In this document: positions 30,402-47,569 of the stretch, piece by piece
Layout: each line of letters begins with the position of its first letter
Numbering within the stretch: position 1 is the first letter of the stretch
Assembly: GCA_030824585.1 (NCBI GenBank)
Contig: JAVBXM010000008.1
Location: 37,832-101,831 of the forward strand
Reading direction: 5' to 3'
Length of the DNA stretch: 64,000 nt
Source: Phaeospirillum sp.
Lineage (GTDB): Bacteria; Pseudomonadota; Alphaproteobacteria; Rhodospirillales; Magnetospirillaceae
Notes under the pieces: model-generated
What the model saw: the letters and a program-made list of their open reading frames with translations, nothing else
Databases searched by the model: none
Told to the model about the DNA's origin: nothing
Program-made: the position numbers and the translations under genes

Positions 30402-31718
30402 TCAGTTGCCCGAACGCATGGCGTCCACCGAGAACCGGTTGGCCGGCGACAGGGACGGGTCCACCTGGCCCTTGAACTGGCCGGTGGTGCAGTGCTGGGC
30501 CTGGACGTCGACCATGGAGAACATGTCGTCGAGCGCGATGCCGGTGCCCTTGTTGACCGGCAGGTGGGTGTCGGGATGGGCCTTGCCGATGGTGAAGTTC
30601 TTCCACAGCTTGCCGTTGCGGTCGTAGGTCAGCGTGCGGGACGCCGCCATGGTCTGGGCGTCGAAGAACATGGTGCGCTTGCCCACCGGGTGGTTGGGAT
30701 CGACCGGGGTGACGTCCACCTCGTAGGCCTTGCGCAACTGCCAACTGGTGTTGGGGAAGCAATTGCCCTTGCCGCCGAAGGCCACGAACTTGTAGCCGGG
30801 CTCGGCGTATTCGGAGGCCAGCTCCTGCTCGTTGTGGTTATAGAAGGGCATCAGGATGTTGCGGGTGCCCTTGAAGGTCCACTTCATGTCCGAGGTCCGG
30901 CCGTTATAGCCCTCGAAATCCTCGATCATGATGTCCGAGCCCAGGAAGGAATCGGTGATCTGGCCGGTGGACAGCTTGCGCACCCGGCGCTGGAAGCCGA
31001 GATACAGCCAGGTGGAATCCAGCTTGCTGTCGTCCTCGTAGCGGTGGATCAGCAACTGGGTGTCGGCCACGTCCTGGGGCTCCAGCACCTTGACGTAGGT
31101 GGCCCGGTACATCTCGGACGGGTTGGGCTCGATGTTGGGCATGGGCGCCTGGCCGGTGCGGTGCATGAAGTTCAGCCAGTGCATGCTCATCTTCAACACG
31201 CGCTCGACCTTGCCGTCGGCCATGGCGCGATAGGTCCAGTAGGTCGGGCTGTTGGCGGCGGAATCGCCCCAGTTGATGCCGTACTTGAAGTTCCAGGCGA
31301 TCTTCTCGCCGGCGCGGGAATCCGAGACCTGGGGCTCCTCGGGGAAGGGGCGGCCGGCCACATAGCCCTTGATCTCGCCGACCTTGTCGCCCAACTGGAC
31401 CTTGCCCAGGTTCTTCTCGGTGGCGTCCACATAGGATTTGCTGACGTCGAACGAGGCGGTGGGGCCGACCTTGACCTCGTACCAGCCGTTCTTGATGGCG
31501 TCGTACATGCCGGGATCAAGGGCGTCCTTGGCCTGTTCGACGTTGCCCTGGTTGATCACCGCGCCCGGCTTGACCACGGAATGGGTGGGAGTTCCTGCCT
31601 TGTAGGGCAGGAAGGACTTGTCGACGGTCTCGGATGCCGCGGCGGCGCCGATGCCGGCTCCCAGCCCCAGGCCCATGCCCAGGGCGACGGTCATGATTCG
31701 GTTCATTGGGCGATTCAT
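30402..31718 (-). CDS. DUF1329 envelope protein
   Basis: 438 residues from ATG 31718 (GGAGGAAAC just upstream; the 31775 start is read-through). A signal peptide (MTVALGMGLGLGAGIGAAAASA-type) leads into a DUF1329 sequence: WTYRAMADGKVERVLKM, YLGFQRRVRKL, DIMIEDFEGYNGR, WKLRK-like WQLRKAYEVDV. These proteins have a lipoprotein-carrier-like (LolA/LolB) beta fold and nearly always accompany DUF1302 proteins and an RND permease, as here. Probable periplasmic or outer-membrane role in moving hydrophobic compounds; the exact cargo is unknown. Confidence 0.85.
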   Translation of the reverse strand: MNRPMNRIMTVALGMGLGLGAGIGAAAASETVDKSFLPYKAGTPTHSVVKPGAVINQGNVEQAKDALDPGMYDAIKNGWYEVKVGPTASFDVSKSYVDATEKNLGKVQLGDKVGEIKGYVAGRPFPEEPQVSDSRAGEKIAWNFKYGINWGDSAANSPTYWTYRAMADGKVERVLKMSMHWLNFMHRTGQAPMPNIEPNPSEMYRATYVKVLEPQDVADTQLLIHRYEDDSKLDSTWLYLGFQRRVRKLSTGQITDSFLGSDIMIEDFEGYNGRTSDMKWTFKGTRNILMPFYNHNEQELASEYAEPGYKFVAFGGKGNCFPNTSWQLRKAYEVDVTPVDPNHPVGKRTMFFDAQTMAASRTLTYDRNGKLWKNFTIGKAHPDTHLPVNKGTGIALDDMFSMVDVQAQHCTTGQFKGQVDPSLSPANRFSVDAMRSGN

Positions 31719-31799
31719 TGTTTCCTCCGGTTGTCTTTTTGATTTGGACCACGCCCCGCCCGGACCGCCCGCCATGGGCGTCCGGACGGGCCGGGCCTC

Positions 31800-33650
31800 C
31801 TAGAAGCGGAACGTGGCGTTGGCGAAGATTTCCGTCTCGTCGTGGGCCATGCCGATGATGCCGGTCCGCAGGTTGCCGAAGGGCTCGGTGCCCAGCCAGG
31901 CGCCCTTGGAGGCCTGGCCGTCCCACGGCACGCCGGTGGCGGCGTCGGCGTTGTTGCCGAAGGTGTTGCGGTACTCGCCGAACTTGACGTTGGCGCCCAG
32001 GCGGAAGCGCCAGGCGGCGGCGGGAATCCACTCGACCGAAGGCTCCAGCACGTTGGCCCCGGCCCGGAAGTCGCGGGCGAAGACCATCTGCGGGCTGACG
32101 GTGTCGGCCATGTACCAGCCCTTGACCATCAGGGTGCCGATCCAGTTCATGTCCCAGTCGGGCATGCCGATGACGCCGTTCTGACGGCTGTGGTACAGCT
32201 CGTGCTGCAGAATGTGCTGGCCGAATACCTGGCCGCTGATCAGGAAGGCGCGGCGCTCGTTGAGGAACGGAATGAAGGTGCTGCGGTCGGCGCCGATGAC
32301 GTAGCGCACCACGTCGGACTTCTTGTAGAGCTGCTTTTGCGCCGTCGAGGCGAATTCCTCGCCCTGGGTGTAGACGCTTTCCAGCCGGAAGGCGGTGTCG
32401 ATGGGATCGACGGTGAAGTCGAGCGAACCGCCGAAGATGTTCAGGCGGGGGAACTCGATGTCGAAGGCCGGGGCATAGTCCCACACCCCGTAATTGCCGT
32501 TCATGCCGTTGCGGCTGACGATGCCGCCCCGCAGCGACGGCATCTGCGAACGCATGGTCAGCGCGTTGACCGAGAAGCCGACGCCCTTGATCTCGCCCTC
32601 GACCTTGCCGCCATAGGTCATGTTCGACAGGTTCCACTCGGGCATATTGGCCTGGCGGATGCCGATCTGGTTGCGGCCGAAGTTGAGCGCGTTGTTGCCG
32701 CCGTTATAGTTGCCGACGGTACAGCCGTTGTCCCAGCAGTTCTTCAGGGCGCGGAACATGCCGGCGGCGCCGGCCGGATTGTTGGGGCTGCCGGCCTGGC
32801 CCAGGTTGTTGGGCCGGAACTTCTCGAACATCCACAGGCCCTGGACGTTCAGGTCGTCGAAGGGGCCGCGCGCCCCCATGCGGTAATCGGCGCGGACCAT
32901 GCCCATGGGAATGCGGATGTCCTGCAACTCGTCATAGATGTTGTTGCGCGAGTAATCGACCGGGTTGACCACGTCGAGCACCCGGAACAGGTCGGTTCGG
33001 CCCCAGACCAGTTGCTGGCGCCCCACCCGTAGCGCCAGGGTGTTGCTCCCCACCGGCATCTCGGCGTCGACGAACAGTTCGCGCACCACGTCGGCGCGGG
33101 AATTCAGTTCGGGGGCCGCCAGATCCCTCTGGCTGTAATCCATGTAGTCCTTGATGCAGCCGCGGCTGTCCACGTCGCAGGGACGGACCGGGGTGGCGAA
33201 GATCAGGCCGTTGTCGGGGCGCCGCCAGCCGTTGACGAGGGCCAGGCCCTCGTTGGGATTGCCGGCCCCGGTCACCATGTCGGCGATGGGCAGGACGTTG
33301 CCGCTGCCCCACGACGTCGCCTTCGAACCGTCGTTGTTGTCGAATTTCACCGAACTGCCGGCGCGGCTGCCGTACTCGGTGGGGTTCAGGTCGTAGACGC
33401 CGTCATACGAGGCCCGCAGGGTGGCGTGGACCTTCATCATGCTGAACGGGCCGCCCACGTTGAGCTTCTTGTCTAGATCGCTCTGGCCCATGCTGCGGGC
33501 CTTGGACAGGCCGGTGGTGGGCCGGAAGCGCACCTCCTCGTCCAGCTTGTTCTTGACGACCCAGCCGTCGGCGTCGGCCGCCAGTGCCGGCAGCGCCAGC
33601 ATCAGCGGCCAGATCAGGGCCATGGTGGTTAAGGTCAAACGACGTCTCAT
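31800..33650 (-). CDS. DUF1302 outer-membrane protein
   Basis: 616 residues from ATG 33650 (GGAG five bases upstream). Signal peptide LTLTTMALIWPLMLALPALAADA, then a long beta-rich sequence ending in IFANATFRF, an aromatic C-terminus typical of outer-membrane barrels. Internal motifs such as LRVGRQQLVWGRTDLFRVLDVVNP and DYRMGARGPFDDLNVQGL are characteristic of DUF1302. Together with DUF1329, the RND permease and the YCF48-like lipoprotein it likely forms an envelope transport system for aromatic or hydrophobic substrates. Confidence 0.85.
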   Translation of the reverse strand: MRRRLTLTTMALIWPLMLALPALAADADGWVVKNKLDEEVRFRPTTGLSKARSMGQSDLDKKLNVGGPFSMMKVHATLRASYDGVYDLNPTEYGSRAGSSVKFDNNDGSKATSWGSGNVLPIADMVTGAGNPNEGLALVNGWRRPDNGLIFATPVRPCDVDSRGCIKDYMDYSQRDLAAPELNSRADVVRELFVDAEMPVGSNTLALRVGRQQLVWGRTDLFRVLDVVNPVDYSRNNIYDELQDIRIPMGMVRADYRMGARGPFDDLNVQGLWMFEKFRPNNLGQAGSPNNPAGAAGMFRALKNCWDNGCTVGNYNGGNNALNFGRNQIGIRQANMPEWNLSNMTYGGKVEGEIKGVGFSVNALTMRSQMPSLRGGIVSRNGMNGNYGVWDYAPAFDIEFPRLNIFGGSLDFTVDPIDTAFRLESVYTQGEEFASTAQKQLYKKSDVVRYVIGADRSTFIPFLNERRAFLISGQVFGQHILQHELYHSRQNGVIGMPDWDMNWIGTLMVKGWYMADTVSPQMVFARDFRAGANVLEPSVEWIPAAAWRFRLGANVKFGEYRNTFGNNADAATGVPWDGQASKGAWLGTEPFGNLRTGIIGMAHDETEIFANATFRF

Positions 33651-33691
33651 TGGACTCCCTCCCTGTAGTCGCCCCCCTTGGGCGAGTTGGT

Positions 33692-36040
33692 TCAAACGGC
33701 CTGGTCGGCCTCACGGGTGATGAATTTCGGGCGGAACGCGGCGATCCAGGCCGGCACGAAGACCATGGCCGAGACGGCGCAGACGATGATCATGAAGATC
33801 AGCAGCTTGGCGGCGTCGGCCTGGAACCGCAGGTCCGAGACGAACACCCAGGCGACGATGCCGCCCACCAGGGTGGTCACCGTGCAGGTCACCGCCAGTC
33901 CGGTGGTGGCGATGGCCCGCCCGATGGCCGCCTGGAAGTCCAGGTGCTCGTGCAGTTCATCCCTGATGCGGTCGATGATGTAGACCGCGTAGTCGATGCC
34001 GATGCCCAACCCCACCGAGATCAGCGGCACGGTGTTGATATTCAGCCCGATGCGGTTGACCGACAGGTAGGCGTAGGTCATGGCGGTGGGCACCAGCATG
34101 GCGATGAACATCAAGAGGCCGGCGTGCCACGAGCGGTAGGTGAAGCCCACCAATCCGCAGATCAGCACGAAGACCATGGGGATGACCTTGAGATTGTCCG
34201 AGAAGATCTCGCGGTTGACCGCCGCCGTGACGCCCAGCACGCCGCCGGCCAGCTCGATGGTCACTCCTTTGGCCAGGGCGGCGACCGCCTTGGCGCCCTC
34301 GGCGGCCATGGCGATGGCGCGGTCCACGGTCTCGCCCTTGTGGTCCTTGTAGAACAGGGCGAGGTTGGCCTTGGAATAGTCCGAGGTGATGAAGTCGTTC
34401 AGTGTGCCGGGAATCGGGCTGGACGCCATGTAGGCGAACAGCACGCCGCCCACCAGTTGGGCGTCGTGGGGAATCTGCTCCCAGCGCTGGTCGCCGTTAT
34501 GGATCAGCTTGTTGACCTGGCGCACCAGGGTCGGCACCGACTTGACGCCGCCCAGTTCGGGGTCGAGCAGCATGTGGTTGTTGAAGGTCTCGATGGCCTT
34601 CATGGCCTCGGGGTCCTTCAGCCCGCCGGGCTTGTCGGCCTTGGCCACCAGCAGCAACTGCTCCGAGCCGGGGAACAGGGCGTTCACCGCCGCCGAGGAC
34701 AGGTTGTAGTCGTGGTCGCGGTAGAGCAGCGGCGAACCGGGCTCGGATTCGCCGATGGTGATGTCCTTGGCCACCACCAGCGAGCCCAGGACCAGCAGCC
34801 CGCCGAGCGCGCTCATGGCCATGGCGCTGCGGCGTCCGGCCACCAGATGGCCCAGGCGGCCCAGCGCGGCACCCAGCACCGAGTGCTTGCGCACCGTCGC
34901 CTTGGGCGTCGGCATGTAGCTGAGCAGCAGCGGTACGGTGACCAGCACGTTCAGCATGCCCGACAGGGCCCACAGCGCGGTGAACACGCCGAGCTCGAAA
35001 TTGATGCGCACCGAGCCGGTCACCAGCAGGATCAGGCCGACGGCGTCGCAGGTGATGCCCAGCGTGCCGGGATGGAACATCTCGCGCAGCGTCTGCTCCG
35101 CCGCCTTGCGCCCGTCGCCGACCCGGGCCAGCTCCTGGTACCAGCGTTCGACGATCTGGATGCCGTGGCTCATGGAGCGCGCGGCGATCAGGAACGGAAT
35201 CACCAGCATCAAGGGGTCCAGGTGGTAGCCCAGCACCACGATGTAGCCCAGGCCCCAGACGGTGGAGATGAAGATGCCGACCAGCGGCAGCGCCACCCCG
35301 TGGAAGCGCCGGAAATAGGCGACCAGCAGCACCAGGACGATCACCGCCGTATAGGCGAAGACCTGCAGGCTTTGCGGCAGGTAGGAATAGACCCAGCCGA
35401 TCAGGGCGGGCTGGCCGGTGGTGTGGATGCGGATGCCGCCCTTGTTCTCACGCGCACGGATGTCCTGCAGTCCCTGGAAGATGCCCAGGTAGTCCAACTG
35501 GCCGCCGTCGATGAACTGGGCCTTGATCAGCGCCGCCTTGAGATCGGGCGAGACGATCAGCCCGAACACCCGGGGATCGACCAGCACCTTGGCCTTCATG
35601 GCCGCCAGTTGCTCCGGCGTCATGGCGCCGAGCGCCGGGTTGTAATAGACCTCGGAGCGCACGCTGCCTTCCTCGGTCAGCGAGATGAAGCGCGCCGTGC
35701 GGTGGGTGATGGACGACACCAGGTTGTGGTTGACGCCCGGCAGGTTGTCGATGGCGCCGGTCACCCGGTCGATGGCCGCCAGGTTCTCGTTGGAAAAGAT
35801 GGTCCCCTCGGAGACCTCGACGGCCACGGTCAGCACGTTGGCGCCGCCGAACAGGCCCCTGATCTCGTTGTGGACCTTGATGAAGGGATGCTGCTGCGGC
35901 AGCAGGCCCTCGAAATCGGTGTAGATCTTGAGCGCCGGAATCTTGGCCGCGAAGGCCAGGGTCACCAGCAGCACCAGGGTAAGGACGAGGCCGCGTCGCG
36001 CGAACAGGCGGTCGGGCAGCGTCTCGATGAAGCTTTTCAT
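33692..36040 (-). CDS. RND/MMPL-type permease
   Basis: 782 residues in the two-repeat layout of the MMPL/HpnN-like RND branch: TM1, large periplasmic loop, TM2-6, TM7, second periplasmic loop, TM8-12. GLGIGIDYAVYIIDRIRDE in the second half is the conserved TM10-11 signature with an acidic residue for proton coupling; the first half has a matching FLIAARSMSHGIQIVERWYQE. It is energised by the proton motive force. Gene order YCF48-RND-DUF1302-DUF1329 is a recurrent module in proteobacteria that use aromatics or sterols. Whether it imports, exports or traffics lipids is not shown by the sequence. Confidence 0.85.
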   Translation of the reverse strand: MKSFIETLPDRLFARRGLVLTLVLLVTLAFAAKIPALKIYTDFEGLLPQQHPFIKVHNEIRGLFGGANVLTVAVEVSEGTIFSNENLAAIDRVTGAIDNLPGVNHNLVSSITHRTARFISLTEEGSVRSEVYYNPALGAMTPEQLAAMKAKVLVDPRVFGLIVSPDLKAALIKAQFIDGGQLDYLGIFQGLQDIRARENKGGIRIHTTGQPALIGWVYSYLPQSLQVFAYTAVIVLVLLVAYFRRFHGVALPLVGIFISTVWGLGYIVVLGYHLDPLMLVIPFLIAARSMSHGIQIVERWYQELARVGDGRKAAEQTLREMFHPGTLGITCDAVGLILLVTGSVRINFELGVFTALWALSGMLNVLVTVPLLLSYMPTPKATVRKHSVLGAALGRLGHLVAGRRSAMAMSALGGLLVLGSLVVAKDITIGESEPGSPLLYRDHDYNLSSAAVNALFPGSEQLLLVAKADKPGGLKDPEAMKAIETFNNHMLLDPELGGVKSVPTLVRQVNKLIHNGDQRWEQIPHDAQLVGGVLFAYMASSPIPGTLNDFITSDYSKANLALFYKDHKGETVDRAIAMAAEGAKAVAALAKGVTIELAGGVLGVTAAVNREIFSDNLKVIPMVFVLICGLVGFTYRSWHAGLLMFIAMLVPTAMTYAYLSVNRIGLNINTVPLISVGLGIGIDYAVYIIDRIRDELHEHLDFQAAIGRAIATTGLAVTCTVTTLVGGIVAWVFVSDLRFQADAAKLLIFMIIVCAVSAMVFVPAWIAAFRPKFITREADQAV

Positions 36041-36050
36041 GGGGCGGTCC

Positions 36051-36995
36051 TCAATTGGTCTTGGTGGCGGGGATCGGCATCAGCGTGCCGGTGCCGGCCA
36101 GCACCAGCCCCGTCCCGGTGGCGGCCAGGCCGCGCAGATCGGCCATGGGAACGCCGGAAATCGGCGTCCAGGCGCCGCCGGTCCGCCGCGCCGCGATGCC
36201 GGCCGCGCCCGCCACCACCGCTTCGTCGCCGGGCAGGGCCAGGACGCCGTACAGCGGCGCCTCGACCGGCGCATTGCCCCGAATCCAGGTGCGGCCGCCG
36301 TCCAGGGTCTCCAGCACGGCGCCGCCGAGGCCCACCACCAGCCCGCGCCGCTCGGTCTCGAAATGCATGCCCTGGGGATAGAAATCCTCGCCCAGCCCAC
36401 CGCCCGGCGCCCAGGTGGCGCCGTTATCGGTGGTGATCAGCACCCGGCCGAACTCGCCGGTCACCACGCCGAAGGCGGGGGTGGGGAACTGGACGTTGAG
36501 CAATTGGATATCCTCGTCGAGGGATTTGGACGTCCAGCTCTTGGCCCCGTCGCCGCTGGTCACCAGTAGGCCGCGCGCCCCCGTCACCCACAGGCGGTTG
36601 TCGGCCGCGCAGGCCACGTCCAGATGGGCGTCCGACGGCGGCAGGTCGCGGGGCGACCAGGTGGCGCCGTCGGGCGTGCCCAGCCACAGCCGGCCGCCGA
36701 AATCCAGCGCCGCGAACGAGCCGTCGCCGCAGGCGGTCACCTTGATCAGCGCGCCGCCCTGGGCCAGGTCCCGGCGCTTCCAGGTGGCGCCGTTGTCGCC
36801 CGAGACGATCACCGCCCCGAACGAGCCCACGGCGACCAGCGCCTTGCCGTTGCCGGCCACCGATTGCAGGTGGTCGATGCGGCGCACCGCCTTGGCCATC
36901 TCGGCCGCCACGCCGCTGTGGCGCTGGTCCCCCTGGCAGGCGCCAAGGCCCAGCACCGCCAGCGCCACGGCCAGCATTCTCAAGCGATAAGACAT
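36051..36995 (-). CDS. YCF48-like beta-propeller lipoprotein
   Basis: 314 residues. The N-terminus LAVALAVLGLGACQGDQ is a lipobox (LGAC), so it is a membrane-anchored lipoprotein. The rest has about seven BNR/YCF48-type repeats, each with a GATWxxR or D/N-G-G-x-T-W core (DNGATWKRR, DNGATWAPG, DGGRTWIRG). YCF48 proteins help assemble membrane complexes in photosynthesis; homologues next to RND/DUF1302/DUF1329 genes presumably help that transport complex. AGGGGAGGAC precedes ATG 36995. It is the first gene of the minus-strand operon, about 90 bp below a sigma54-type promoter. Confidence 0.85.
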   Translation of the reverse strand: MSYRLRMLAVALAVLGLGACQGDQRHSGVAAEMAKAVRRIDHLQSVAGNGKALVAVGSFGAVIVSGDNGATWKRRDLAQGGALIKVTACGDGSFAALDFGGRLWLGTPDGATWSPRDLPPSDAHLDVACAADNRLWVTGARGLLVTSGDGAKSWTSKSLDEDIQLLNVQFPTPAFGVVTGEFGRVLITTDNGATWAPGGGLGEDFYPQGMHFETERRGLVVGLGGAVLETLDGGRTWIRGNAPVEAPLYGVLALPGDEAVVAGAAGIAARRTGGAWTPISGVPMADLRGLAATGTGLVLAGTGTLMPIPATKTN

Positions 36996-37093: not shown

Positions 37094-37109
37094 AGCAACC
37101 GCTATGCCA
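37094..37109 (-). promoter_or_regulatory. Sigma54 (-24/-12) promoter of the YCF48-RND-DUF1302-DUF1329 operon
   Basis: On the minus strand the sequence is TGGCATAGCGGTTGCT, with GG and GC separated by exactly ten bases (consensus TGGCAC-N5-TTGC). The start of the first gene is at 36995, leaving an untranslated leader of roughly 85-90 bases. It pairs logically with the sigma54 activator encoded at 47566-48945. Confidence 0.7.
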
Positions 37110-37327
37110 GTGCGCGGGATCTCGCCAAGAAGCATCATGTTGCGTTGCAATAAACGACAGTATCGGCCAGATGTGATTGGATTCGGCGTGTGGCTATCTA
37201 CTTATGGAGTGGCTCTGGAATCGATATATGTTGTTCCAAATGGCGACACTGTCTTGCATCTGTACACAGTGCATGGAATCTCGCGCCCGCAATTGGAGTG
37301 GATCGTTTTGGGTCAGTGTCGCGAAAT

Positions 37328-37343: not shown

Positions 37344-37443
37344 GCGTGTTGCCGTGGGTTCGCCCCGGCCCTTGGGGCGGAAGGCGGTGGCACCGGGATT
37401 GCAGCGGACGGGGGACAAACAGCTCCAAACGGGAGGACCGTCC

Positions 37444-38544
37444 ATGAAAGTCAATGCCGCCGTTACCCGGGCCAAGCACGCCCCCATGTCCCTGGAAGTT
37501 CTCGATCTGGCCGAACCCCGGGACGGGGAGATCCTGGTCCGCGTCGTCGCCACCGGCGTCTGCCACACCGACATCGCCATGCGCGACCAGACCTATCCGG
37601 TGCCCCAGCCCATCGTGCTGGGCCACGAGGGGGCCGGCGTGGTGGAGAAGGTGGGGCGCGGCGTCACCAAGGTCGCGGTGGGCGACCATGTGGTGATGTC
37701 CTATAATTCGTGCGGCCACTGCGACAGCTGCAACGAGCACGCTCCCAACTACTGCCACGACTTCTTCGGCCACAACTTCGCCGGCGTGCGTCCCGACGGG
37801 ACCAGCGCGCTGAGCAAGGGGGGCGAGGTCATCCACGGCAACTTCTTCGGCCAGTCGTCCTTCGCCAATTTCGCCCTGTGCCACGAGCGCAACGTGGTCA
37901 AGGTCTCCAAGGACGCGCCGCTGGAGCTGCTCGGGCCGCTGGCCTGCGGCATCCAGACCGGGGCGGGCGCGGTGATCAACGCGCTGAAGGTCGGGGCGGG
38001 CCGCACCATCGCGGTGTTCGGCGCCGGCTCGGTGGGCCTGTCCGCCGTGATGGCGGCCCGCGTGGTGGGGGCCGTCACCATCGTCGCCGTGGACGTGGTG
38101 CCCGAGCGCCTGACCATGGCCAAGACCCTGGGGGCCACCCATGCCCTCAATCCCAAGGAGGTGGACGTGGTGGCCGAGATCATGAAGATCACCGGCACCG
38201 GTGTGGATTTCGCCTTCGAATCCACCGGCATTCCGGCGGTGATCCGCAACGCCATGGAAAGCCTGGCGCCGCGCGGCACCTGCGGCATCGTCGGCGCCGC
38301 CTCGCTGGATACCGAGATCACGCTCAACGCCATGCACCTGATGACGGCCGGGCGCTCCATCCGGGGCATCGTCGAGGGCGATTCCACTCCGGACGTGTTC
38401 ATTCCCCAACTGATCGAACTGTATCGCCAGGGGCGCTTCCCCTTCGACAAGCTGGTCAGCTTCTATCCCTATGAGAAGATCAACCAGGCGGTCGAGGACG
38501 CCGAGACCGGCAAGGCCATCAAACCGATCATCCGCATGGGCTGA
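37444..38544 (+). CDS. Zinc-dependent aryl-alcohol dehydrogenase
   Basis: 366 residues from ATG 37444 (GGGAGGACC upstream; longer ORF-track starts are unsupported). MDR superfamily: catalytic zinc ligands in CHTD and GHEGAGVVE, a structural zinc lobe with CGHCDSCNEHAPNYC, and the NAD fold VFGAGSVGLSA. The overall sequence resembles benzyl-alcohol/aryl-alcohol dehydrogenases (LGPLACGIQTGAGAVIN). Beside p-cresol genes it probably oxidises 4-hydroxybenzyl alcohol to 4-hydroxybenzaldehyde, a step the methylhydroxylase can also perform. It ends at a strong bidirectional terminator. Confidence 0.87.
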   Translation: MKVNAAVTRAKHAPMSLEVLDLAEPRDGEILVRVVATGVCHTDIAMRDQTYPVPQPIVLGHEGAGVVEKVGRGVTKVAVGDHVVMSYNSCGHCDSCNEHAPNYCHDFFGHNFAGVRPDGTSALSKGGEVIHGNFFGQSSFANFALCHERNVVKVSKDAPLELLGPLACGIQTGAGAVINALKVGAGRTIAVFGAGSVGLSAVMAARVVGAVTIVAVDVVPERLTMAKTLGATHALNPKEVDVVAEIMKITGTGVDFAFESTGIPAVIRNAMESLAPRGTCGIVGAASLDTEITLNAMHLMTAGRSIRGIVEGDSTPDVFIPQLIELYRQGRFPFDKLVSFYPYEKINQAVEDAETGKAIKPIIRMG

Positions 38545-38563: not shown

Positions 38564-38595
38564 AAACCCCGGAGCGGTCGCCCGCTCCGGGGTTT
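38564..38595. terminator. Bidirectional intrinsic terminator
   Basis: AAACCCCGGAGCG and CGCTCCGGGGTTT form a 13-bp stem around a 6-nt loop, with CCTTTT on the plus-strand side and an A/T-rich TATTATTTTA on the minus-strand side. It separates the convergent dehydrogenase (ends 38544) and membrane protein (ends 38612). Confidence 0.85.
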
Positions 38596-38611
38596 CCTTT
38601 TGCCTCGGCGC

Positions 38612-39703
38612 CTATTGGGCGGCGTCCGGGGCGGGGCGCGACAGCGGCCAGAAGGCGAAGCCGTCGCCGAGCGCCACGAACACCGGGAAGGTCACCGACA
38701 GCATGGCGGTGGCGATCCACAGGTCCAGGCCGTAGGTGGGGGCGCCGCCGGGCATGGCGCCGACCAGCATGACGGCGGCGGCGGCGTAGACCCGGTACAT
38801 CACCACGGCCAGCACCACCACCAGGACCAGCAGAGCCAAGCCCTTGACCGGCTGGCGGATGGCCTGGAACGGCGCGGTCTGCATCATGACCAGCATGATG
38901 AATTCACCGAACAGGCCCGAGACCGGCACGCGGACCATGTAATCCACCACGTCCATGCCCATCACCTTGATGCCCAGGGTCCAGACGACCCAGGAGACGG
39001 CCAGCACCAGCACGGCGTTGAGCAGGCCGAACAGCGGCTGGCGCCCCAGGGCCGGAAGCGCCGCCGCGATGGTGGCCGACGGCCAGAAGTCCAGCAGCAC
39101 GAACCACATGATCACCGAGACGGTGGTGACGATGAACGAGAGCGCGTTCCAGGCGGGGAAGGCTCCCTTGGGGTCCAGGGCGGCGGCATAGAAGGGGGCG
39201 TCCTTCATGGCGCCGAAATCGAAACCCAGCTTGAAGGTGACCAGGGCGGTGACATAGGCCAGGACGAAGACGCCCAGGCCGATCGCTCCCGGATGCTTGG
39301 AAACGGCGGCCATGGGCCAGCACTGGAACACCGCCACCAGCCAGAAGGCGCAGCACACCGAGACGATGGTGTACATGATGGCGAAGGGCTTGGGCACGCC
39401 GAAGCCGCCATCCACCAGGGCCAGGATGGTCGGCGTCATGATCAGGGCGGCAGCCAGCATCAGCCCCAGGATGGCCACGCCCTTCACCGGCTGGGCCAGA
39501 CGGCCGAGAAAGCCGGGATAGGCGCTCTGCCACACCAGGCCGATGACGATCTGGCCCGGGATGGCGCTCATGATCAGCAGCGCCACCCAACTGCCGAAGG
39601 TGGCGGGGTCGAACTGGGCGCAGATGCCCAGGGACAGGCTGACCGCCACCAGGGCGGTGACGATTCCGAGAACGGGCTGCTTGAGCCCAAGAGAGTTCGG
39701 CAT
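38612..39703 (-). CDS. Polytopic membrane protein of unknown family, divergent from pch genes
   Basis: 363 residues from ATG 39703 (GGGGGAAACC upstream). About ten or more hydrophobic helices with little hydrophilic sequence, for example VLGIVTALVAVSLSLGI, VAILGLMLAAALIMTPTIL and GLALLVLVVVLAVVMYRVY. Two similar short segments, LAQPVKGVAILG and IRQPVKGLALLV, suggest an internal duplication. I do not recognise the family. It is divergent from pchC, has its own sigma54-type promoter, and shares the palindromic region with pchC, so it is probably induced with the pathway: an attractive candidate for p-cresol or 4-hydroxybenzoate transport. Confidence 0.75.
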   Translation of the reverse strand: MPNSLGLKQPVLGIVTALVAVSLSLGICAQFDPATFGSWVALLIMSAIPGQIVIGLVWQSAYPGFLGRLAQPVKGVAILGLMLAAALIMTPTILALVDGGFGVPKPFAIMYTIVSVCCAFWLVAVFQCWPMAAVSKHPGAIGLGVFVLAYVTALVTFKLGFDFGAMKDAPFYAAALDPKGAFPAWNALSFIVTTVSVIMWFVLLDFWPSATIAAALPALGRQPLFGLLNAVLVLAVSWVVWTLGIKVMGMDVVDYMVRVPVSGLFGEFIMLVMMQTAPFQAIRQPVKGLALLVLVVVLAVVMYRVYAAAAVMLVGAMPGGAPTYGLDLWIATAMLSVTFPVFVALGDGFAFWPLSRPAPDAAQ

Positions 39704-39755: not shown

Positions 39756-39771
39756 AGCAACCCCCATGCCA
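39756..39771 (-). promoter_or_regulatory. Sigma54 (-24/-12) promoter of the membrane protein gene
   Basis: Minus-strand TGGCATGGGGGTTGCT has GG-N10-GC and both consensus halves (TGGCA, TTGC). It lies about 53-68 bases upstream of ATG 39703. It faces away from the matching promoter at 39914-39929. Confidence 0.7.
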
Positions 39772-39810: not shown

Positions 39811-39861
39811 TGTCGCGTTTTCGGCTGTCCCGTTTCAACGCAGTGTCTCGTTTCGCGACAC
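39811..39861. promoter_or_regulatory. Candidate activator-binding (UAS) region between divergent sigma54 promoters
   Basis: Three related elements start at 39811 (TGTCGCGTTTTCG), 39826 (TGTCCCGTTTCAA) and 39844 (TGTCTCGTTTCGCGACA). The last is part of a 19-bp near-perfect palindrome, GTGTCtCG-TTT-CGcGACAC. The block lies 40-100 bp upstream of the minus-strand promoter and 50-120 bp upstream of the pchC promoter, where NtrC-family enhancer sites usually sit. An inverted copy of TTTCGCGACAC occurs at 37316. Confidence 0.6.
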
Positions 39862-39913: not shown

Positions 39914-39929
39914 TGGCATCACCCTTGCA
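39914..39929 (+). promoter_or_regulatory. Sigma54 (-24/-12) promoter of pchCXFA
   Basis: TGGCATCACCCTTGCA has GG and GC with ten bases between and a full TTGCA -12 box. The pchC start (GTG) is at 39999, giving a leader of roughly 60 bases. Confidence 0.75.
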
Positions 39930-39998: not shown

Positions 39999-40331
39999 GT
40001 GAAGAAGAAAAGAAATCAAGCAGCCGTGCTGGCCGGCTCGCTCGTCATCGGCTTCGTTGCTTCTGTCGCGGCCGGGGATGCCTGGGCGCAGGTCGCCGGG
40101 CAATGGCGGGATGCCCAGCATGTCTATTCCAAGATCTGCGCCAACTGTCATGAAATCGGTGTCGGCCCGGTGATCAAGGGCCGCAACCTCGACCCCGACT
40201 ATTATCAGAGCGTGGTGCGTCACGGCATGCGGGCCATGCCCGCCTTCCGCCCCACCGACGTGGACGATGCTATGCTGCGGCAGGTGGCCGAGATGCTGTC
40301 CAAGAGCCCGGCGCCGGGAGGGGCGAAATGA
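39999..40331 (+). CDS. pchC: p-Cresol methylhydroxylase cytochrome c subunit
   Basis: 110 residues starting at GTG 39999 behind GGGGGAGG. Signal peptide (QAAVLAGSLVIGFVASVAAGDAWA) then a small class I cytochrome c with CANCHE for covalent haem and a C-terminal axial Met region (GMRAMPAFRPTDVDD). In the periplasmic PCMH enzyme it accepts electrons from the flavoprotein subunit PchF. Its position at the head of a pchC-X-F-A order, as known from Pseudomonas putida, supports the name. The stop overlaps the pchX start. Confidence 0.85.
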   Translation: MKKKRNQAAVLAGSLVIGFVASVAAGDAWAQVAGQWRDAQHVYSKICANCHEIGVGPVIKGRNLDPDYYQSVVRHGMRAMPAFRPTDVDDAMLRQVAEMLSKSPAPGGAK

Positions 40332-40813
40332 GGCTGTCGCGCCGCGCCGTGCTGGGAGCCGCCCTGGGTGGCGGCACCCTGGCCGCCCTGCGCGGGCTGC
40401 CGGCGGCGGCCATGACCGCCCCGGTCTCCGGCGCCACCCTGGTGCTGGCCGATCCGTCGGTGAGCCCCGGCTTCGCCGAGGCGGTCCGCAACTGGACCGG
40501 CGGCACCGTCCGCACGGTGACCGGGCCCCAGACCCTGGCCGACGCCGCCCGCTGGCTGGCGGCGGCGCCCGGGCGGCGGGTGGTCGGCCTGGTGGAGGAT
40601 TCCGACGGCGTGCTGTTCCAGCAGATGGTGCCGCGCGGCCGGGCCACCTGGCTGTCCGCCGTTCATCACGCCCCGCGCCCCGTGGCCGGATCGGACTGGG
40701 AGATCGCCCTGGGCGACGGCCTGGGCCGCATGGCCGCCGGACGCGCCACGGGCGGAAATCTGGATGCGGGCGGCCCATCGGTGGCCCGGATGTCCTTCGT
40801 GGTGGCCGGCTAA
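40328..40813 (+). CDS. pchX: PchX-like exported protein between pchC and pchF
   Basis: 161 residues. The ATG at 40328 overlaps the pchC stop (ATGA). N-terminus MRLSRRAVLGAALGGGTLAAL has a twin-arginine-type SRRAVLG motif followed by a hydrophobic core, so Tat export is likely. The mature part has alternating beta/alpha character (TLVLADPSVSPGFAEAV, RVVGLVEDSDG) but no known domain. In Pseudomonas a gene called pchX, of unclear role, occupies this same position. It may assist maturation or export of the flavocytochrome; name is by position, not by sequence comparison. Confidence 0.65.
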   Translation: MRLSRRAVLGAALGGGTLAALRGLPAAAMTAPVSGATLVLADPSVSPGFAEAVRNWTGGTVRTVTGPQTLADAARWLAAAPGRRVVGLVEDSDGVLFQQMVPRGRATWLSAVHHAPRPVAGSDWEIALGDGLGRMAAGRATGGNLDAGGPSVARMSFVVAG

Positions 40814-40837: not shown

Positions 40838-42385
40838 ATGGCCAGCAAGTATGTCGCCCTGCCCAAGGGCGTTTCGGAAAAGAACTTCGACGCCGCCATC
40901 CGCGAGTACCGCGAGATTCTGGGCGCCGCCAACGTCTTCACCGATGCCGAGCATCTGGTGTCCTACAACAAGATCATGATTCCCGACAGCAACGAGAACC
41001 ACCAGCCGTCGGCGGCCATCTGCCCGGCCTCCACCGAGGAGGTCCAGCGTTGCGTGGCGGTGTGCAACAAGTACAAGGTCCCGGTGTGGCCGATCTCGAC
41101 GGGCCGCAACCTGGGCTACGGCTCGGCGGCGCCGGGCTCGCGCGGGCAGGTGGTCATGGACCTGCGCCGCATGAACAAGATCATCGAGGTGGACGCCGAT
41201 CTGGGCACCGCCCTGGTCGAGCCGGGCGTCACCTTCCAGCAGCTCTACGACTACCTGCAGGACAACAAAATTCCGCTGTGGCTGTCGTGCCCGGCGCCGT
41301 CCTCCATCGCCGGCCCGCTGGGCAACGCCGCCGACCGCGGGGTGGGCTACACGCCTTATGGCGAGCACTTCATGTTCTCGTGCGGCATGGAAGTGGTGAT
41401 GCCCACCGGCGAGGTGCTGAAGACCGGCATGGGCTCGCTGCCCAATTCCAACACCGCCCAGGTGTTCAAGTGGGGGTACGGCCCCTATCTGGACGGCATC
41501 TTCACCCAGTCCAATTACGGCATCATCACCAAGATGGGCTTCTGGCTGATGCCGGCCCCGCCCGCCTTCAAGCCCTATGTCATCCGCTATCCCGAGGAAA
41601 CCGACATCGTCGACATCGTCGAGACGTTGCGGCCGCTGCGCATGGCCATGGTCATCCCCAACGCGGTGGTGATCGTCCACGCCCTGTGGGAGCTGGGCTC
41701 GTTCCTCAAGCGTGCCGATTACTACACCGGCCCCGGCTCCATTCCCGATTCCGTGGTCAAGGAGATGGTGAAGAAGCACAAGGTCGGCATGTGGAACGTC
41801 TATTGCGGCCTCTACGGCACGCCCGAGCAGAACGAGGTCAACTGGAACATCATCCAGCACGTGGTCAAGTCGTCGGGCAAGGGTGAGTTGCTGACCGCCG
41901 AGCAGGTGGGCGATGATCCGGTATTCAAGTACCGCGCCGATCTGATGCAGGGCAAGATGAACACCGCCGAGTTCGGACTCTACAATTGGCGGGGCGGCGG
42001 CGGCTCGGCGTGGTTCGCCCCCGTGAGCCAGGCGCGCGGCAGCGAGACCATGAAGCAGATGGAGATGACCAAGCGTATCCTGGGCAAGTACGGCTTCGAC
42101 TACGTCTCGGAGTTCATCGTCGGCTGGCGCGACATGCACCATATCGTCGACCTGCTCTACGACCGTACCGATCCGGCCCAGATGCAGGCCGCCCACGCCT
42201 GTTTCGACGAACTGCTGACGGAGTTCTCCAAGCACGGCTACGGCACCTACCGCGTCAACACCGCCTTCATGGACAAGGTCGCCGACACCTACGGGCCGGT
42301 GAAGAAGGAGGTCAACCGCAAGATCAAGCGGGCGCTGGACCCCAACGGCATCATCGCGCCCGGCAAGTCCGGTATCTGGAACTAA
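40838..42385 (+). CDS. pchF: p-Cresol methylhydroxylase flavoprotein subunit
   Basis: 515 residues, vanillyl-alcohol-oxidase/PCMH family. N-terminal FAD-binding PP-loop domain (PASTEEVQRCVAVCNKYKVPVWPISTGRNLGYG, GSRGQVVMDLRRMNKI), then a cap domain and the C-terminal segment NRKIKRALDPNGIIAPGKSG shared by the family. FAD is covalently tyrosyl-linked in PCMH; I cannot fix that residue here. It hydroxylates p-cresol with water at the methyl group, giving 4-hydroxybenzyl alcohol and then the aldehyde, without O2. It has no signal peptide, as is true of known PchF, which is thought to travel with a partner. AGGAG precedes ATG 40838. Confidence 0.88.
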   Translation: MASKYVALPKGVSEKNFDAAIREYREILGAANVFTDAEHLVSYNKIMIPDSNENHQPSAAICPASTEEVQRCVAVCNKYKVPVWPISTGRNLGYGSAAPGSRGQVVMDLRRMNKIIEVDADLGTALVEPGVTFQQLYDYLQDNKIPLWLSCPAPSSIAGPLGNAADRGVGYTPYGEHFMFSCGMEVVMPTGEVLKTGMGSLPNSNTAQVFKWGYGPYLDGIFTQSNYGIITKMGFWLMPAPPAFKPYVIRYPEETDIVDIVETLRPLRMAMVIPNAVVIVHALWELGSFLKRADYYTGPGSIPDSVVKEMVKKHKVGMWNVYCGLYGTPEQNEVNWNIIQHVVKSSGKGELLTAEQVGDDPVFKYRADLMQGKMNTAEFGLYNWRGGGGSAWFAPVSQARGSETMKQMEMTKRILGKYGFDYVSEFIVGWRDMHHIVDLLYDRTDPAQMQAAHACFDELLTEFSKHGYGTYRVNTAFMDKVADTYGPVKKEVNRKIKRALDPNGIIAPGKSGIWN

Positions 42386-42401: not shown

Positions 42402-43844
42402 ATGAAGGAATACAAGCTGTTCATCGGCGGCGAATGGGTCGCCTCGTCGGGCAACACCGTCGCCGACAACATCGATCCGGCCACCGGCAAGGCCTTCGCC
42501 CGCGTCCACCAGGCCGGGCTGCCCGACCTGGAAAAGGCGGTGGCCGCCGCCCATGCCGCATCCAAGGAATGGGGCAACACGCTGGCCAACCAGCGCGAGG
42601 CCATCCTGATCAAGGCCGCCGACGTGCTGGCCGGGCGTATCCCGGAAATCGCCGAGGTGCTGCGCTACGAATCCGGCTCAACCTTCGGCAAGTCCATGTT
42701 CGAGGTGTCGTTCTGCGTCAACCTGCTGCGCAGCGCGGCGGGCGAATGCCGGCGTATCTTCGGCGAGACCATGCCGTCCGATTCCCCCGGCCTGTTCTCC
42801 ATGAGCGTGCGCCGGCCGCTGGGCGTCATCGCCGGCATCGCGCCCTACAACTTCCCCTTCCTGCTGGCCTTCAAGAAGGTGGCCATGGCGCTGGCGGCGG
42901 GTAACGCCTTCGTGCTGAAGCCGGCGGGCTATACCCCCATCTCGGGCCTGATGATCGCCGAGGTGATGGAAGCCGCCGGCCTGCCCAAGGGCGTGCTGAA
43001 CGTCATTCCCGGCCCCGGCGGCAAGCTGGGCGACGCCCTGATCGCCGATCCCCGGGTCAAGATGGTGACCTTCACCGGCTCCACCGAGGTGGGCCGCCAT
43101 ATCGGCGAGATGGCCGCCCGGCACTTCAAGAAGTGCACCCTGGAGATGGGCGGCAAGAGCCCGCTGATCGTGCTCAAGGACGCCGACATCCCCTATGCGG
43201 TGGACGCCGCCTGCTTCGGCATCTTCCTGCACCAGGGCCAGGTCTGCATGGTCAACTCGCGCATCATCGTCGAGGAACCGATCTTCGACGAATTCTGCAA
43301 GGCCTTCACCGCCAAGGTCCGCACGCTGCAGGTGGGCGACCCCCACCACCCGCACACCGTGATCGGCCCGCTGATCAACCAGGGCCAGTGCGCCGTGGTG
43401 CAGGGCCACGTGGACGACGCGGTGAAGAAGGGCGCGCGGCTGCTCAACGGTGGCAAGTCCGACGGCGCCTTCTACGAGCCGACGGTGCTGGCCGGGGTCA
43501 CCGACGACATGGTGGTCTACCGCGACGAGACCTTCGGGCCGCTGGTGTCCATCATCCGCGCTGGTGATTCCGAGGAAGCCCTGGAGATCGCCAACGACAG
43601 CAATTACGGCCTGTCCTCGGCGGTGATCACCAACGACCTGCAGAAGGCCATGGACCTGGCGATGCGCCTTGAATCCGGGGCCGTCCACCTCAACGACTGC
43701 ACCATCTACGACGAGCCGCACGTGCCCTTCGGCGGCATCAAGGAAAGCGGCATGGGCCGCGAGGGTGGCAAGTGGTCCATGGAGGAGATGACCGAGATCA
43801 AGTGGATCACCATTCAGATGGGCAAGCGCCACTTCCCGTTCTGA
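42402..43844 (+). CDS. pchA: 4-Hydroxybenzaldehyde dehydrogenase (ALDH superfamily)
   Basis: 480 residues, full-length aldehyde dehydrogenase. Cofactor region PYNFPFLLAFKK, general base in LEMGGKSP, nucleophile Cys in HQGQVCMVNSRI, and ETFGPLVSII near the end. Homologous to the vanillin/benzaldehyde dehydrogenase branch. In this operon it should oxidise 4-hydroxybenzaldehyde to 4-hydroxybenzoate with NAD(P)+, completing the upper p-cresol pathway. GGGAGGAG precedes ATG 42402 and the pchF stop is 16 bp away. Confidence 0.87.
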   Translation: MKEYKLFIGGEWVASSGNTVADNIDPATGKAFARVHQAGLPDLEKAVAAAHAASKEWGNTLANQREAILIKAADVLAGRIPEIAEVLRYESGSTFGKSMFEVSFCVNLLRSAAGECRRIFGETMPSDSPGLFSMSVRRPLGVIAGIAPYNFPFLLAFKKVAMALAAGNAFVLKPAGYTPISGLMIAEVMEAAGLPKGVLNVIPGPGGKLGDALIADPRVKMVTFTGSTEVGRHIGEMAARHFKKCTLEMGGKSPLIVLKDADIPYAVDAACFGIFLHQGQVCMVNSRIIVEEPIFDEFCKAFTAKVRTLQVGDPHHPHTVIGPLINQGQCAVVQGHVDDAVKKGARLLNGGKSDGAFYEPTVLAGVTDDMVVYRDETFGPLVSIIRAGDSEEALEIANDSNYGLSSAVITNDLQKAMDLAMRLESGAVHLNDCTIYDEPHVPFGGIKESGMGREGGKWSMEEMTEIKWITIQMGKRHFPF

Positions 43845-43932: not shown

Positions 43933-45474
43933 ATGACCGAATGCAATCGCCGCAAAAGTCCGCTCAACAACGCCAGCGAACAGATCGCCGGCTGGCAGGC
44001 GGCCGCCGGGCTGGGCGGCAAGGCCGCCATCCTGGCCGCCGAGCGCGCAGTCACCTTCTCGGACCTGGCCGAAAGCATCAACCGGGTCGGCAACGGCCTG
44101 CTGGCCGGCGGCGTGCGGCCCGGCGACCGGGTGATCCTGCTGATGGCCGACACGCCCGAGCTGATCGCCGCCTATCTGGCGGTGATGAAGGTCGGCGCGG
44201 TGGCCATCGCGCTCAATACCCGCGGCAGCGCCGGCGATATCGGCCATGCCATGGAGGACAGCGGCTGCGCCGCCCTGCTGACCGACCATACCCTGCTGTC
44301 CCTGTTCCAGTCGGCCCTGGACCGTACCGATTACCGCCCGCCCCTGGTGGTGGACGACGTGGCCGCCTTCGCCGCCGGCCAGCCGGCCGAACTGGCGGCC
44401 CATGCGGTCCTGCCCACCGATCCCGCCTTTATGATCTACACCTCTGGCACCACGGGGGCCGCCAAAGGCGCCATCCACCGCCACGGCGACGTGGAGATCG
44501 GCGACCTGCACCTGCGGCAGAATTTCGGCGTGGCCCCCGGCGACCGGGTGTTCTCCACTTCGAAGCTGTTCTTCGCCTATGCCCTGGGCCACAGCCTGAT
44601 CGGCGCGCTGAAATGCGGCGCCACCGTTATCCTTTATGCCGGCTGGCCCGATGCCGAGGCGGTGGCCGAGGTGGTCGAGCGTCACGCTCCCACCATCTTG
44701 CTCAGCGTGCCCACCCTTTATCGCAACCTGCTCCGCAGCCAGGTGGTCGGCCGCCCCGCCTTCCGCCGTATCCGTCACTTCATCTCCGCCGGGGAGCGGC
44801 TGCCGGAATCGGTGTTCTCGGAATGGCTCCAGGCCACCGGCCAGCCCATCCTGGAAGGGATCGGCACCAGCGAGATCGTCTTCCTGGCCATCGCCAACAC
44901 GCCGTTGGCCTATCGCATGGGCTCGTCGGGCCGCCCCCAGCCCTGGGCCCGGGTCAAGCTGCTGGACGAGGACGGCAAACCGGTGCGCGAGCCCGGCCGC
45001 ACCGGCATCTTGTGGCTGAAGATGGCCTCGGTGGCCGCCGGCTACTGGAACCAGCCGGACAAGACCGCCGAGGCGTTCCAGAAGGGCTGGTACCGCACCG
45101 GCGACGTCTTCTCGGTGGATGCCGAGGGTTGGTGGGAACACCACGGGCGCGGCGACGACATGCTGAAGATCTCCGGCCAGTGGGTCAGTCCCGCCGAGAT
45201 CGAGGAGCACGCCCTGAAGCTGCCCGGCATCGCCGAGGTGGCCGCCGTGGGGGTGACCACCCAGGACGGGCTGGTCCGCCTGGGCCTTGCCGTGGTCCGT
45301 GCCGATTTCGCCCCGGGCACCGAGGTGATGGAGGCCAATCTGCGCCAGCATTTCGAGCGCAGCCTGTCCATCTACAAATGTCCGCGCCGCATCCGCTTCG
45401 TCGACGAGATGCCGCGCACCGTCACCGGCAAGCTGCAGCGCTTCCGGGTCCGCGACCTGTTCGCGCCGGAATAG
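43933..45474 (+). CDS. Aryl-CoA ligase (4-hydroxybenzoate/benzoate-CoA ligase family)
   Basis: 513 residues, ANL adenylate-forming enzyme. AMP motif IYTSGTTGAAKGAIHRH, then GTSEIVF, YRTGDVFSVD, GRGDDMLKISGQWVSP and the C-terminal Lys in TVTGKLQRF. The pattern (HGDVEIGDLHLRQNFGV..., FFAYALGHSLIGAL) is that of benzoate/4-hydroxybenzoate-CoA ligases. Here it most plausibly activates 4-hydroxybenzoate to 4-hydroxybenzoyl-CoA, the entry to anaerobic ring reduction. No hydroxybenzoyl-CoA reductase genes occur in the window. Confidence 0.85.
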   Translation: MTECNRRKSPLNNASEQIAGWQAAAGLGGKAAILAAERAVTFSDLAESINRVGNGLLAGGVRPGDRVILLMADTPELIAAYLAVMKVGAVAIALNTRGSAGDIGHAMEDSGCAALLTDHTLLSLFQSALDRTDYRPPLVVDDVAAFAAGQPAELAAHAVLPTDPAFMIYTSGTTGAAKGAIHRHGDVEIGDLHLRQNFGVAPGDRVFSTSKLFFAYALGHSLIGALKCGATVILYAGWPDAEAVAEVVERHAPTILLSVPTLYRNLLRSQVVGRPAFRRIRHFISAGERLPESVFSEWLQATGQPILEGIGTSEIVFLAIANTPLAYRMGSSGRPQPWARVKLLDEDGKPVREPGRTGILWLKMASVAAGYWNQPDKTAEAFQKGWYRTGDVFSVDAEGWWEHHGRGDDMLKISGQWVSPAEIEEHALKLPGIAEVAAVGVTTQDGLVRLGLAVVRADFAPGTEVMEANLRQHFERSLSIYKCPRRIRFVDEMPRTVTGKLQRFRVRDLFAPE

Positions 45475-45754: not shown

Positions 45755-47569
45755 GTGCAACCTCGGGATATGACGCTGCCCGATCTGGTCAGTTTTGACC
45801 CGGATCATGGCTTGATTTCATTTTGTGGACGCCGTGCGGTGTTGGTCCAGGCCGACGCCATGGGAGCCTTGCGCAAGGAGCTGATCGACACCCTGGGCGT
45901 CGACATCGCCAAGGTGATCCTGACCCGCTTCGGCTATAGCTGCGGCCAAAGCGACGCACGGCATCTGCACGCCCTGATGGGCGATGACGCCGTGTCGGAG
46001 TTCGTCCTGGCCGGGCCGAAGCTGCACATGCTCGAAGGCGTGGTCTGCGTCGAGACCCATGCCCTGCTCATCGACCCGGAGACCGGCCATTACGACATGG
46101 CCGGCGTGTGGAAGAACTCGTACGAGGCCGAGCAGCACGTAAGGTTGTTCGGCGTGTCGTCCGATCCGGTGTGCTGGACGGTGTCGGGCTATGCCTCGGG
46201 TTTCTCGTCGGTGGCGTTCGATACCCCGATGATCTGCATCGAGGACCAGTGCGTCGGACGCGGCCATGCCGAATGCTCGTGGCGCCTGATCTCCTCGGAC
46301 ATCTGCGGCCCCGAGCACGACGAGCATCGCCGCCTGTTCATGCCGCTCAACCTGCAGCAGCACATCAACCTGCTGGAGCAGAAGGTGCAGCAGCGCACCG
46401 CCGATCTGGCCGCCTCGGAATCGCGCTACCGCGATCTGGTGGACAACCTGTCGGAGATCGTCTTCAGCCTGGACGGCAACGGCCAGCTGGTCCACCTCAA
46501 CCGGGCCGGCCGCCGCCGGCTGGGCCTGGCGGCCGACGGCGAGATGGTGCCGCTGGCCCGCCTGATGACCATGCCCCACCGCCGCCGCCTCGCCCGTTTC
46601 CTGCGTCAGGTGGGCGACAGCGGGTCCGAGGGGCGGATCGAAACCGCGCTGCGCAGCCTGCACGGCGAGGAAATTCCCGCCCAGATGCAGATCAGCCCGG
46701 TGATGGACGGCGAACGGCTGGCCGGCTACCGGGGGCTGGCCATCGATATTTCCCAGCGTCAGGCCCGCGAGCGCAAGCTGACCGAATACGCCTCCAGCCT
46801 GGAAAGCCAACTGGCCCAGGCCACCCGTCTGGCCGGACTGGGGCAGTTCGCCTCGGGCATCGCCCACGAGATCAACAACCCCATGGGGTTGATCTCCGCC
46901 TATGCCGAGGACCTGCTCGACACCATCGGCGACGGCGGCGGCGGCGGGGACCCGGTGGACGTCGAGCGCCTGCGCCGCGGTCTGGCGACCATCCAGGAGC
47001 AGGCCTACCGCTGCAAGTACATCACCCAGAACGTGCTGTCCTTCGCCCGTGACCAGGTGGTCAACCTGGAGCCCACCAACCTGGGCGCCCTGGTGCGCGA
47101 CAAGGTGGCCTTCTTCAGCGACCGGGCCGGCGGAGTCGCCCTCGACATCCGCCTGACCGTCAACGACGACCTGCCGCCGGTCCGCACCGATCCCAGCCTG
47201 ATCGGCCAAGTTCTGCTCAATCTGCTGAAGAACGCCGCCGAGGCCACGGAATCCAACGGCCGTCTCATGGTGTCGCTGGGCCGTTTCCGCAGCCGTATCC
47301 GCCTGGAAGTGGCCGATGACGGCCCGGGGCTGGCGCCGGAGATCATGGAAAAGGTCTTCGACCCGTTCTTCACCACCAAGGAGCCCGACAGGGGGACCGG
47401 CCTCGGCCTGTCCATCTGCTACGGCATCGTGCGCTCCCTGGGGGGAACCATCACCTGCGGCAACCGCCCGGCCGGGGGGGCCTGGTTCCGCGTGTCGCTG
47501 CCAATGGTATCCGAAGGGCCAACGGCATCCGAGGGGCCAATTGTATCCGAGGGGAGTGTCGAGCGATGA
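45755..47569 (+). CDS. Aromatic-sensing histidine kinase (XylR-N/V4R - PAS - HisKA - HATPase)
   Basis: 604 residues from GTG 45755; ATG 45770 is an alternative. Residues 1-95 resemble the XylR_N aromatic-effector domain ([30 protein letters not shown]), 125-185 a V4R domain ([31 protein letters not shown]). These domains normally sit on XylR/DmpR-type sigma54 activators; here they feed a coiled coil, PAS domain and kinase: H-box [42 protein letters not shown]. No TM segment, so it senses in the cytoplasm. The stop overlaps the response-regulator start (ATGA). A p-cresol two-component system called PcrSR is, as I recall, described in Aromatoleum; this pair may correspond. Confidence 0.85.

Follow-up and report, generated by a model that had tools for sequence, protein, structure and literature searches.

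A membrane protein with ten predicted helices and no named family, encoded beside the p-cresol methylhydroxylase genes of Phaeospirillum sp.: a candidate carrier for simple phenolics

Why is a membrane protein of no named family encoded back to back with the p-cresol methylhydroxylase genes of Phaeospirillum sp.? The gene lies in a stretch of 64,000 nucleotides, here called the window; the features of interest are collected in Table 1. An earlier note on this DNA had described an open reading frame for a strongly hydrophobic protein of 363 residues. We found it at exactly that location, intact, with no internal stop codon and a GRAVY value of 1.17. Its GC content by codon position (0.64/0.48/0.90) follows the same pattern as that of the coding neighbours, and alignments with orthologues of 82, 81, and 76% identity begin at a matching ATG.

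Table 1. Features of the window and of related plasmid loci
Feature	Position	Strand	Remark
DUF1329, DUF1302, MMPL/RND, and YCF48-like genes	30402-36995	-	all on one strand
sigma54-type element TGGCATAGCGGTTGCT	37094-37109	-	just upstream of the DUF1329-DUF1302-MMPL/RND-YCF48 run
sigma54-type element of ADH	37388-37403	+	full score; opposite TGGCATAGCGGTTGCT
Zinc alcohol dehydrogenase (ADH)	37438-38544	+	presumed 4-hydroxybenzyl alcohol dehydrogenase; convergent with the membrane-protein gene
Inverted repeat, G+C-rich, flanked by A and T runs	38564-38600		probable shared terminator, read from the sequence
Membrane-protein gene (focal gene)	38612-39703	-	363 aa; ten helices; unnamed family; probably monocistronic
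sigma54-type -24/-12 element TGGCATGGGGGTTGCT of the focal gene	39756-39771	-	TGGCAT-N5-TTGCT; about 53 bp upstream of the ATG
Palindrome TGTCTCGTTTCGCGACA	39844-39860		candidate shared activator site between both promoters; same place in four loci
sigma54-type -24/-12 element TGGCATCACCCTTGCA of pchC	39914-39929	+	TGGCAT-N5-TTGCA; kept in L006, L007, L008
pchC, c-type cytochrome subunit of p-cresol methylhydroxylase	39999-40331	+	Pfam Cytochrome_CBB3; synteny
pchX-like gene, small protein with Tat-like N-terminus	40328-40813	+	without Pfam family; conserved in L006, L007, L008, L022
pchF, flavoprotein subunit of p-cresol methylhydroxylase	40838-42385	+	Pfam FAD_binding_4, FAD-oxidase_C
Aldehyde dehydrogenase	42402-43844	+	presumed 4-hydroxybenzaldehyde dehydrogenase; named from sequence
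AMP-forming acyl-CoA ligase	43933-45474	+	presumed 4-hydroxybenzoate-CoA ligase; L009 homologue has AMP-binding_C
XylR_N/V4R/PAS histidine kinase	45755-47569	+	PcrS-like phenolic sensor; Pfam domains
sigma54-activating response regulator	47566-48945	+	PcrR-like; Pfam domains
Truncated family copies by IS5 elements	L012 12025-12798; L013 12025-12792		Klebsiella pneumoniae plasmids

The earlier note had recognized no family for the protein, and the profile and structure searches it proposed gave the same picture. No profile in Pfam, transporter profiles included, or in NCBIfam matched the focal protein up to E = 10, and no credible match was found among PDB sequences. Ten family members and two further paralogues likewise matched nothing in Pfam (nine relatives tested to E = 1, also for transporter profiles). 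Matches to MFS_1 or AAHS profiles were absent from the focal protein (Pfam, NCBIfam) and its relatives (Pfam), as were enzyme, receptor, and signalling domains. A search of viral contigs returned no relatives. The refuting condition named in the earlier note, clear homology to a known non-transport family, did not turn up in these searches; nor did sequence, or AF2 models of only fair confidence, reveal homology to any transporter. The family is new and unannotated, and its functional type is probably one already known.

Two AF2 models (pLDDT 64 and 65; pTM 0.65 and 0.71) agree on ten membrane helices arranged as five hairpins. Every hairpin opens with a QPxxG-like motif, namely KQPVLG (residues 8-13), AQPVKG (70-75), KHPGAIG (136-142), RQPLFG (221-226), and RQPVKG (283-288). 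The two related QPVKG segments pointed out in the earlier note are present (71-75 and 284-288), but they understate a pattern that extends to all five hairpins. Three of the five close with WP (130, 208, and 353), and the other two with the related proline motifs WQSAYP and QTAP. Most of the basic residues are found on the side of the motifs, which suggests that the N- and C-termini are both inside. The charged residues kept without exception in ten diverse members (lowest identity 34%) are D177, D205, and D251; E267 and H137 vary.

Both models were compared with the PDB and one with BFVD. Neither showed a convincing resemblance to any solved fold. The top matches, GltPh, POT peptide carriers, GPCRs, and MurJ, were rejected as noise (E at least about 0.08, TM-score at most about 0.3). 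The best MFS-fold matches reached a TM-score of about 0.3 at E above 0.1, with ten predicted helices compared to twelve. Since the confidence of the models is only fair, the lack of a matching fold says little for or against a carrier. As predicted, the protein would share the general traits of secondary carriers, being polytopic, devoid of ATPase and signalling domains, and equipped with conserved carboxylates at the membrane edge. A carrier is the simplest function for such a domain-free, Asp-bearing membrane protein.

The start codon of pchC is GTG, as judged by comparison with the related locus L007. The pchX-like gene shares 4 bp with pchC, and in related loci it retains its place between pchC and pchF. 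Identities amount to 91-93% for pchF in orthologous loci and, in L007, L008, and L022, to 79-90% for the aldehyde dehydrogenase and 76-90% for ADH. In L006, the pchF orthologue (7625-8938, -) matches residues 1-309 only and then continues into unrelated sequence, which indicates a disrupted gene or a misassembly.

The 295 bp separating the focal gene from pchC hold two strong sigma54-type elements, one per gene. The divergent promoter facing pchC that the earlier note had read is there, accompanied by a second one for the focal gene, and both occupy corresponding positions in L006, L007, and L008. The site of the focal gene is conserved at L006 9933, L007 9927, L008 9932, and L022 5123 (all +). 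When this 295-bp region was shuffled with its dinucleotides preserved, two sites scoring this high occurred in 0.13% of cases. Over the whole window, sigma54-like sites were not above chance (6 seen versus 11.5 expected at the threshold). The case for the promoters is therefore built on where they lie, which way they point, and their conservation. The outer pairs of the palindrome between the promoters covary across four close loci (GTGTC/GACAC, CTGTC/GACAG, GTATC/GATAC), as expected for a dimer-binding site. Upstream of the ADH and YCF48 operons the palindrome was not found, apart from one half-site-like stretch near 37317. Downstream, the inverted repeat probably terminates both the focal gene and the convergent ADH gene. 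Flanked by a sigma54-type promoter and this strong repeat, the focal gene is probably transcribed alone. Its control together with the pch genes, as proposed in the earlier note, is supported by the promoter evidence.

PcrSR controls the p-cresol genes in Aromatoleum aromaticum EbN1 (PMC10715001). The EbN1 regulons PcrSR, PheR, and EtpR combine V4R sensors, sigma54 activation, and cmh/pch or pps genes; the window resembles them in its sigma54 -24/-12 promoters and in the nearby PcrSR-like pair with its V4R domain. By this model, p-cresol would be sensed by the kinase-regulator pair (45755-48945), the response regulator would bind the palindrome, and the two back-to-back promoters would fire, so that p-cresol methylhydroxylase and the membrane protein are made together. 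With its five hairpins and both ends presumably inside, the latter could use the three invariant Asp residues to couple proton movement to substrate passage.

What such a protein might carry is indicated by the gene contexts of its relatives. In the window, L006, L007, L008, and L022, the gene is divergent to pchC-pchX-pchF and, where the contig allows, convergent to ADH. In L023, it lies directly downstream of an SDR-cytochrome-pchX-pchF run on the same strand, accompanied by a second PchF-like gene. In L009 and L043, it is found downstream of ppsA/ppsB/ppsC-like genes and faces a MobR-like activator; UbiD, CBS, and UbiX-like genes are located at a greater distance. The L009 member shares the strand of the pps-like genes (domains PEP-utilizers, PPDK_N, and double CBS), which we name from their domain architecture and the established knowledge of phenylphosphate synthase rather than from a curated model. 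The facing XylR_N/V4R sigma54 activator is closest to the phenol regulator MobR, below the cut-off of that model, and the UbiD carboxylase, with CBS and UbiX-like genes beside it, lies about 10 kb from the member. In L042, the relative belongs to a protocatechuate 4,5-cleavage cluster with ligA/ligB, a PcaQ-like regulator, and an aromatic-acid MFS carrier nearby.

The aromatic link is weaker in L040, where the neighbours are a GMC oxidoreductase, a TonB receptor, and an NHL gene; an adjoining fragment best matches the reductase of p-hydroxyphenylacetate 3-hydroxylase (below cut-off), and a TTQ amine dehydrogenase light chain is nearby. Aromatic genes were not found in the neighbourhoods of L010 (LuxR, TonB receptor, amidase) and L024 (two neighbours without Pfam match, LuxR-like by eye). 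Truncated copies of 37% identity, flanked by IS5, occur on IncFIB/IncHI1B plasmids of Klebsiella pneumoniae. They are donor-derived relics, and no aromatic catabolic genes were found near them. HAD-IIA phosphatase and UPF0261-type genes accompany the phenol and alkylphenol-type clusters (L009 4892-5761, -, and 13140-14480, +; L023 9608-11708, -, and 15092-16330, -; UPF0261 in L023 named by eye from its similarity to the L009 gene). They may be unrecognized parts of phenol catabolism.

The tight linkage to pchCXF in six loci could point to a membrane partner of the oxidizing enzyme, which would either pass electrons on to quinone or help to assemble the flavocytochrome. We consider this highly improbable. 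The ten-member alignment contains no conserved His pairs in helices, the trait of b-type cytochrome anchors; H137 is the only His kept in most members, and the remaining ones have Pro, Asn, or Lys in its place. On this ground we rejected a role as electron-transfer anchor. Moreover, the phenol-cluster relative in L009 has no cytochrome or PchF gene near it, and its genome lacks a strong PchF match, which largely refutes such a partnership; other PchF genomes, in turn, lack the membrane protein. Since the family is attached to p-cresol methylhydroxylase, phenylphosphate synthase, and a ring-cleavage cluster alike, a partner specific for the methylhydroxylase is unlikely. The factor common to these loci is a phenolic compound.

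We therefore propose, with about even confidence, that the protein represents a hitherto undescribed carrier family of the inner membrane, the cargo being simple phenolics such as p-cresol, phenol, and related compounds, or their 4-hydroxybenzoate product. The earlier note had suggested a p-cresol or hydroxybenzoate carrier. This remains plausible, but the phenol, alkylphenol-type, and protocatechuate genes adjoining the relatives weaken a p-cresol-only reading and make phenolics in general the likely class of ligands. A transport role, its cargo, and its direction are all what we infer from sequence and its context, and we judge import of the substrate to be the most likely direction, because the gene rides with first-step enzymes in L009 and L023. 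The main objection is physical: both phenol and p-cresol are expected to cross membranes unaided and to reach equilibrium within milliseconds (PMC10715001), so that the need for a carrier is not obvious.

The same membrane protein might instead relieve phenol or aldehyde stress while the pathway operates, as an exporter or tolerance protein. Its promoter is of the same kind as that of the pathway, and the neighbouring MMPL/RND-DUF1302-DUF1329-YCF48 operon, which has a sigma54-type site of its own, is reminiscent of the "solvent efflux" cluster of strain EbN1, which is co-regulated with p-ethylphenol genes. This operon and ADH look co-regulated with pch. However, the cluster thereby already has a dedicated efflux-type operon, whose protein families differ from that of the focal protein and show no match to it, and in L009 and L023 the gene sits at the end of a first-step enzyme operon. 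We consider export an unlikely role.

Within the carrier reading, and as a minor share of its probability, the cargo could be 4-hydroxybenzoate or another aromatic acid recaptured after leakage. 4-Hydroxybenzoate is the product at which the pch and pps routes meet, a ligase gene is near in the window and in L009, and the L042 relative lies within a protocatechuate cluster. PcaK-type MFS aromatic acid/H+ symporters are also polytopic and encoded in 4-hydroxybenzoate/protocatechuate clusters, but they have twelve helices, against ten predicted for the focal protein, which shows neither an MFS profile match nor detectable homology to them. L042, however, contains its aromatic-acid MFS gene in addition to the family member, and the members in L009 and L023 go with the first-step enzymes. 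We consider this narrower version improbable.

The protein family is rare. Members were detected in 1 of 399 genomes in a sample of the phylum, in 7 of 297 in the order, and in 6 of 55 in the taxonomic family; the order of a Colwellia genome yielded 2 of 395. Of the 55 genomes, five encode PchF (E below 1e-60) and all five carry the membrane protein, as does one further genome, the one with the phenol cluster. The co-occurrence (Fisher p 1.7e-6, not corrected for kinship and physical linkage) mostly restates that the genes are linked. It does show, however, that the protein accompanies the pathway and lies outside the core of the lineage. The protein is missing from seven of the eight PchF-like genomes in the phylum sample and is therefore accessory; oxidations of this kind can proceed in its absence. 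In G141, one of these genomes and a more distant one (PchF identity 63%), branched-chain-type ABC uptake-like genes (named by eye) are located near pchF instead.

In the consulted papers on EbN1, phenol and p-cresol are taken to enter passively, and a search of their text turned up no such membrane protein. The literature searched, mostly outside subscription journals, contained nothing relevant on phenol or p-cresol carriers, which does not prove their absence. A bolder extension of the carrier proposal, which we regard as rather doubtful, is an unrecognized superfamily of five-hairpin permeases for neutral phenols, by which p-cresol and phenol uptake would be carrier-mediated and induced in some denitrifiers.

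The wider interest of the family is that degraders are assumed to take up phenol and p-cresol by diffusion alone (PMC10715001). A conserved membrane protein, linked to the pathway by its promoter and attached to different first-step reactions of phenol degradation, is a concrete candidate for probing that view. This unannotated family may also be of use in biosensing and bioremediation.
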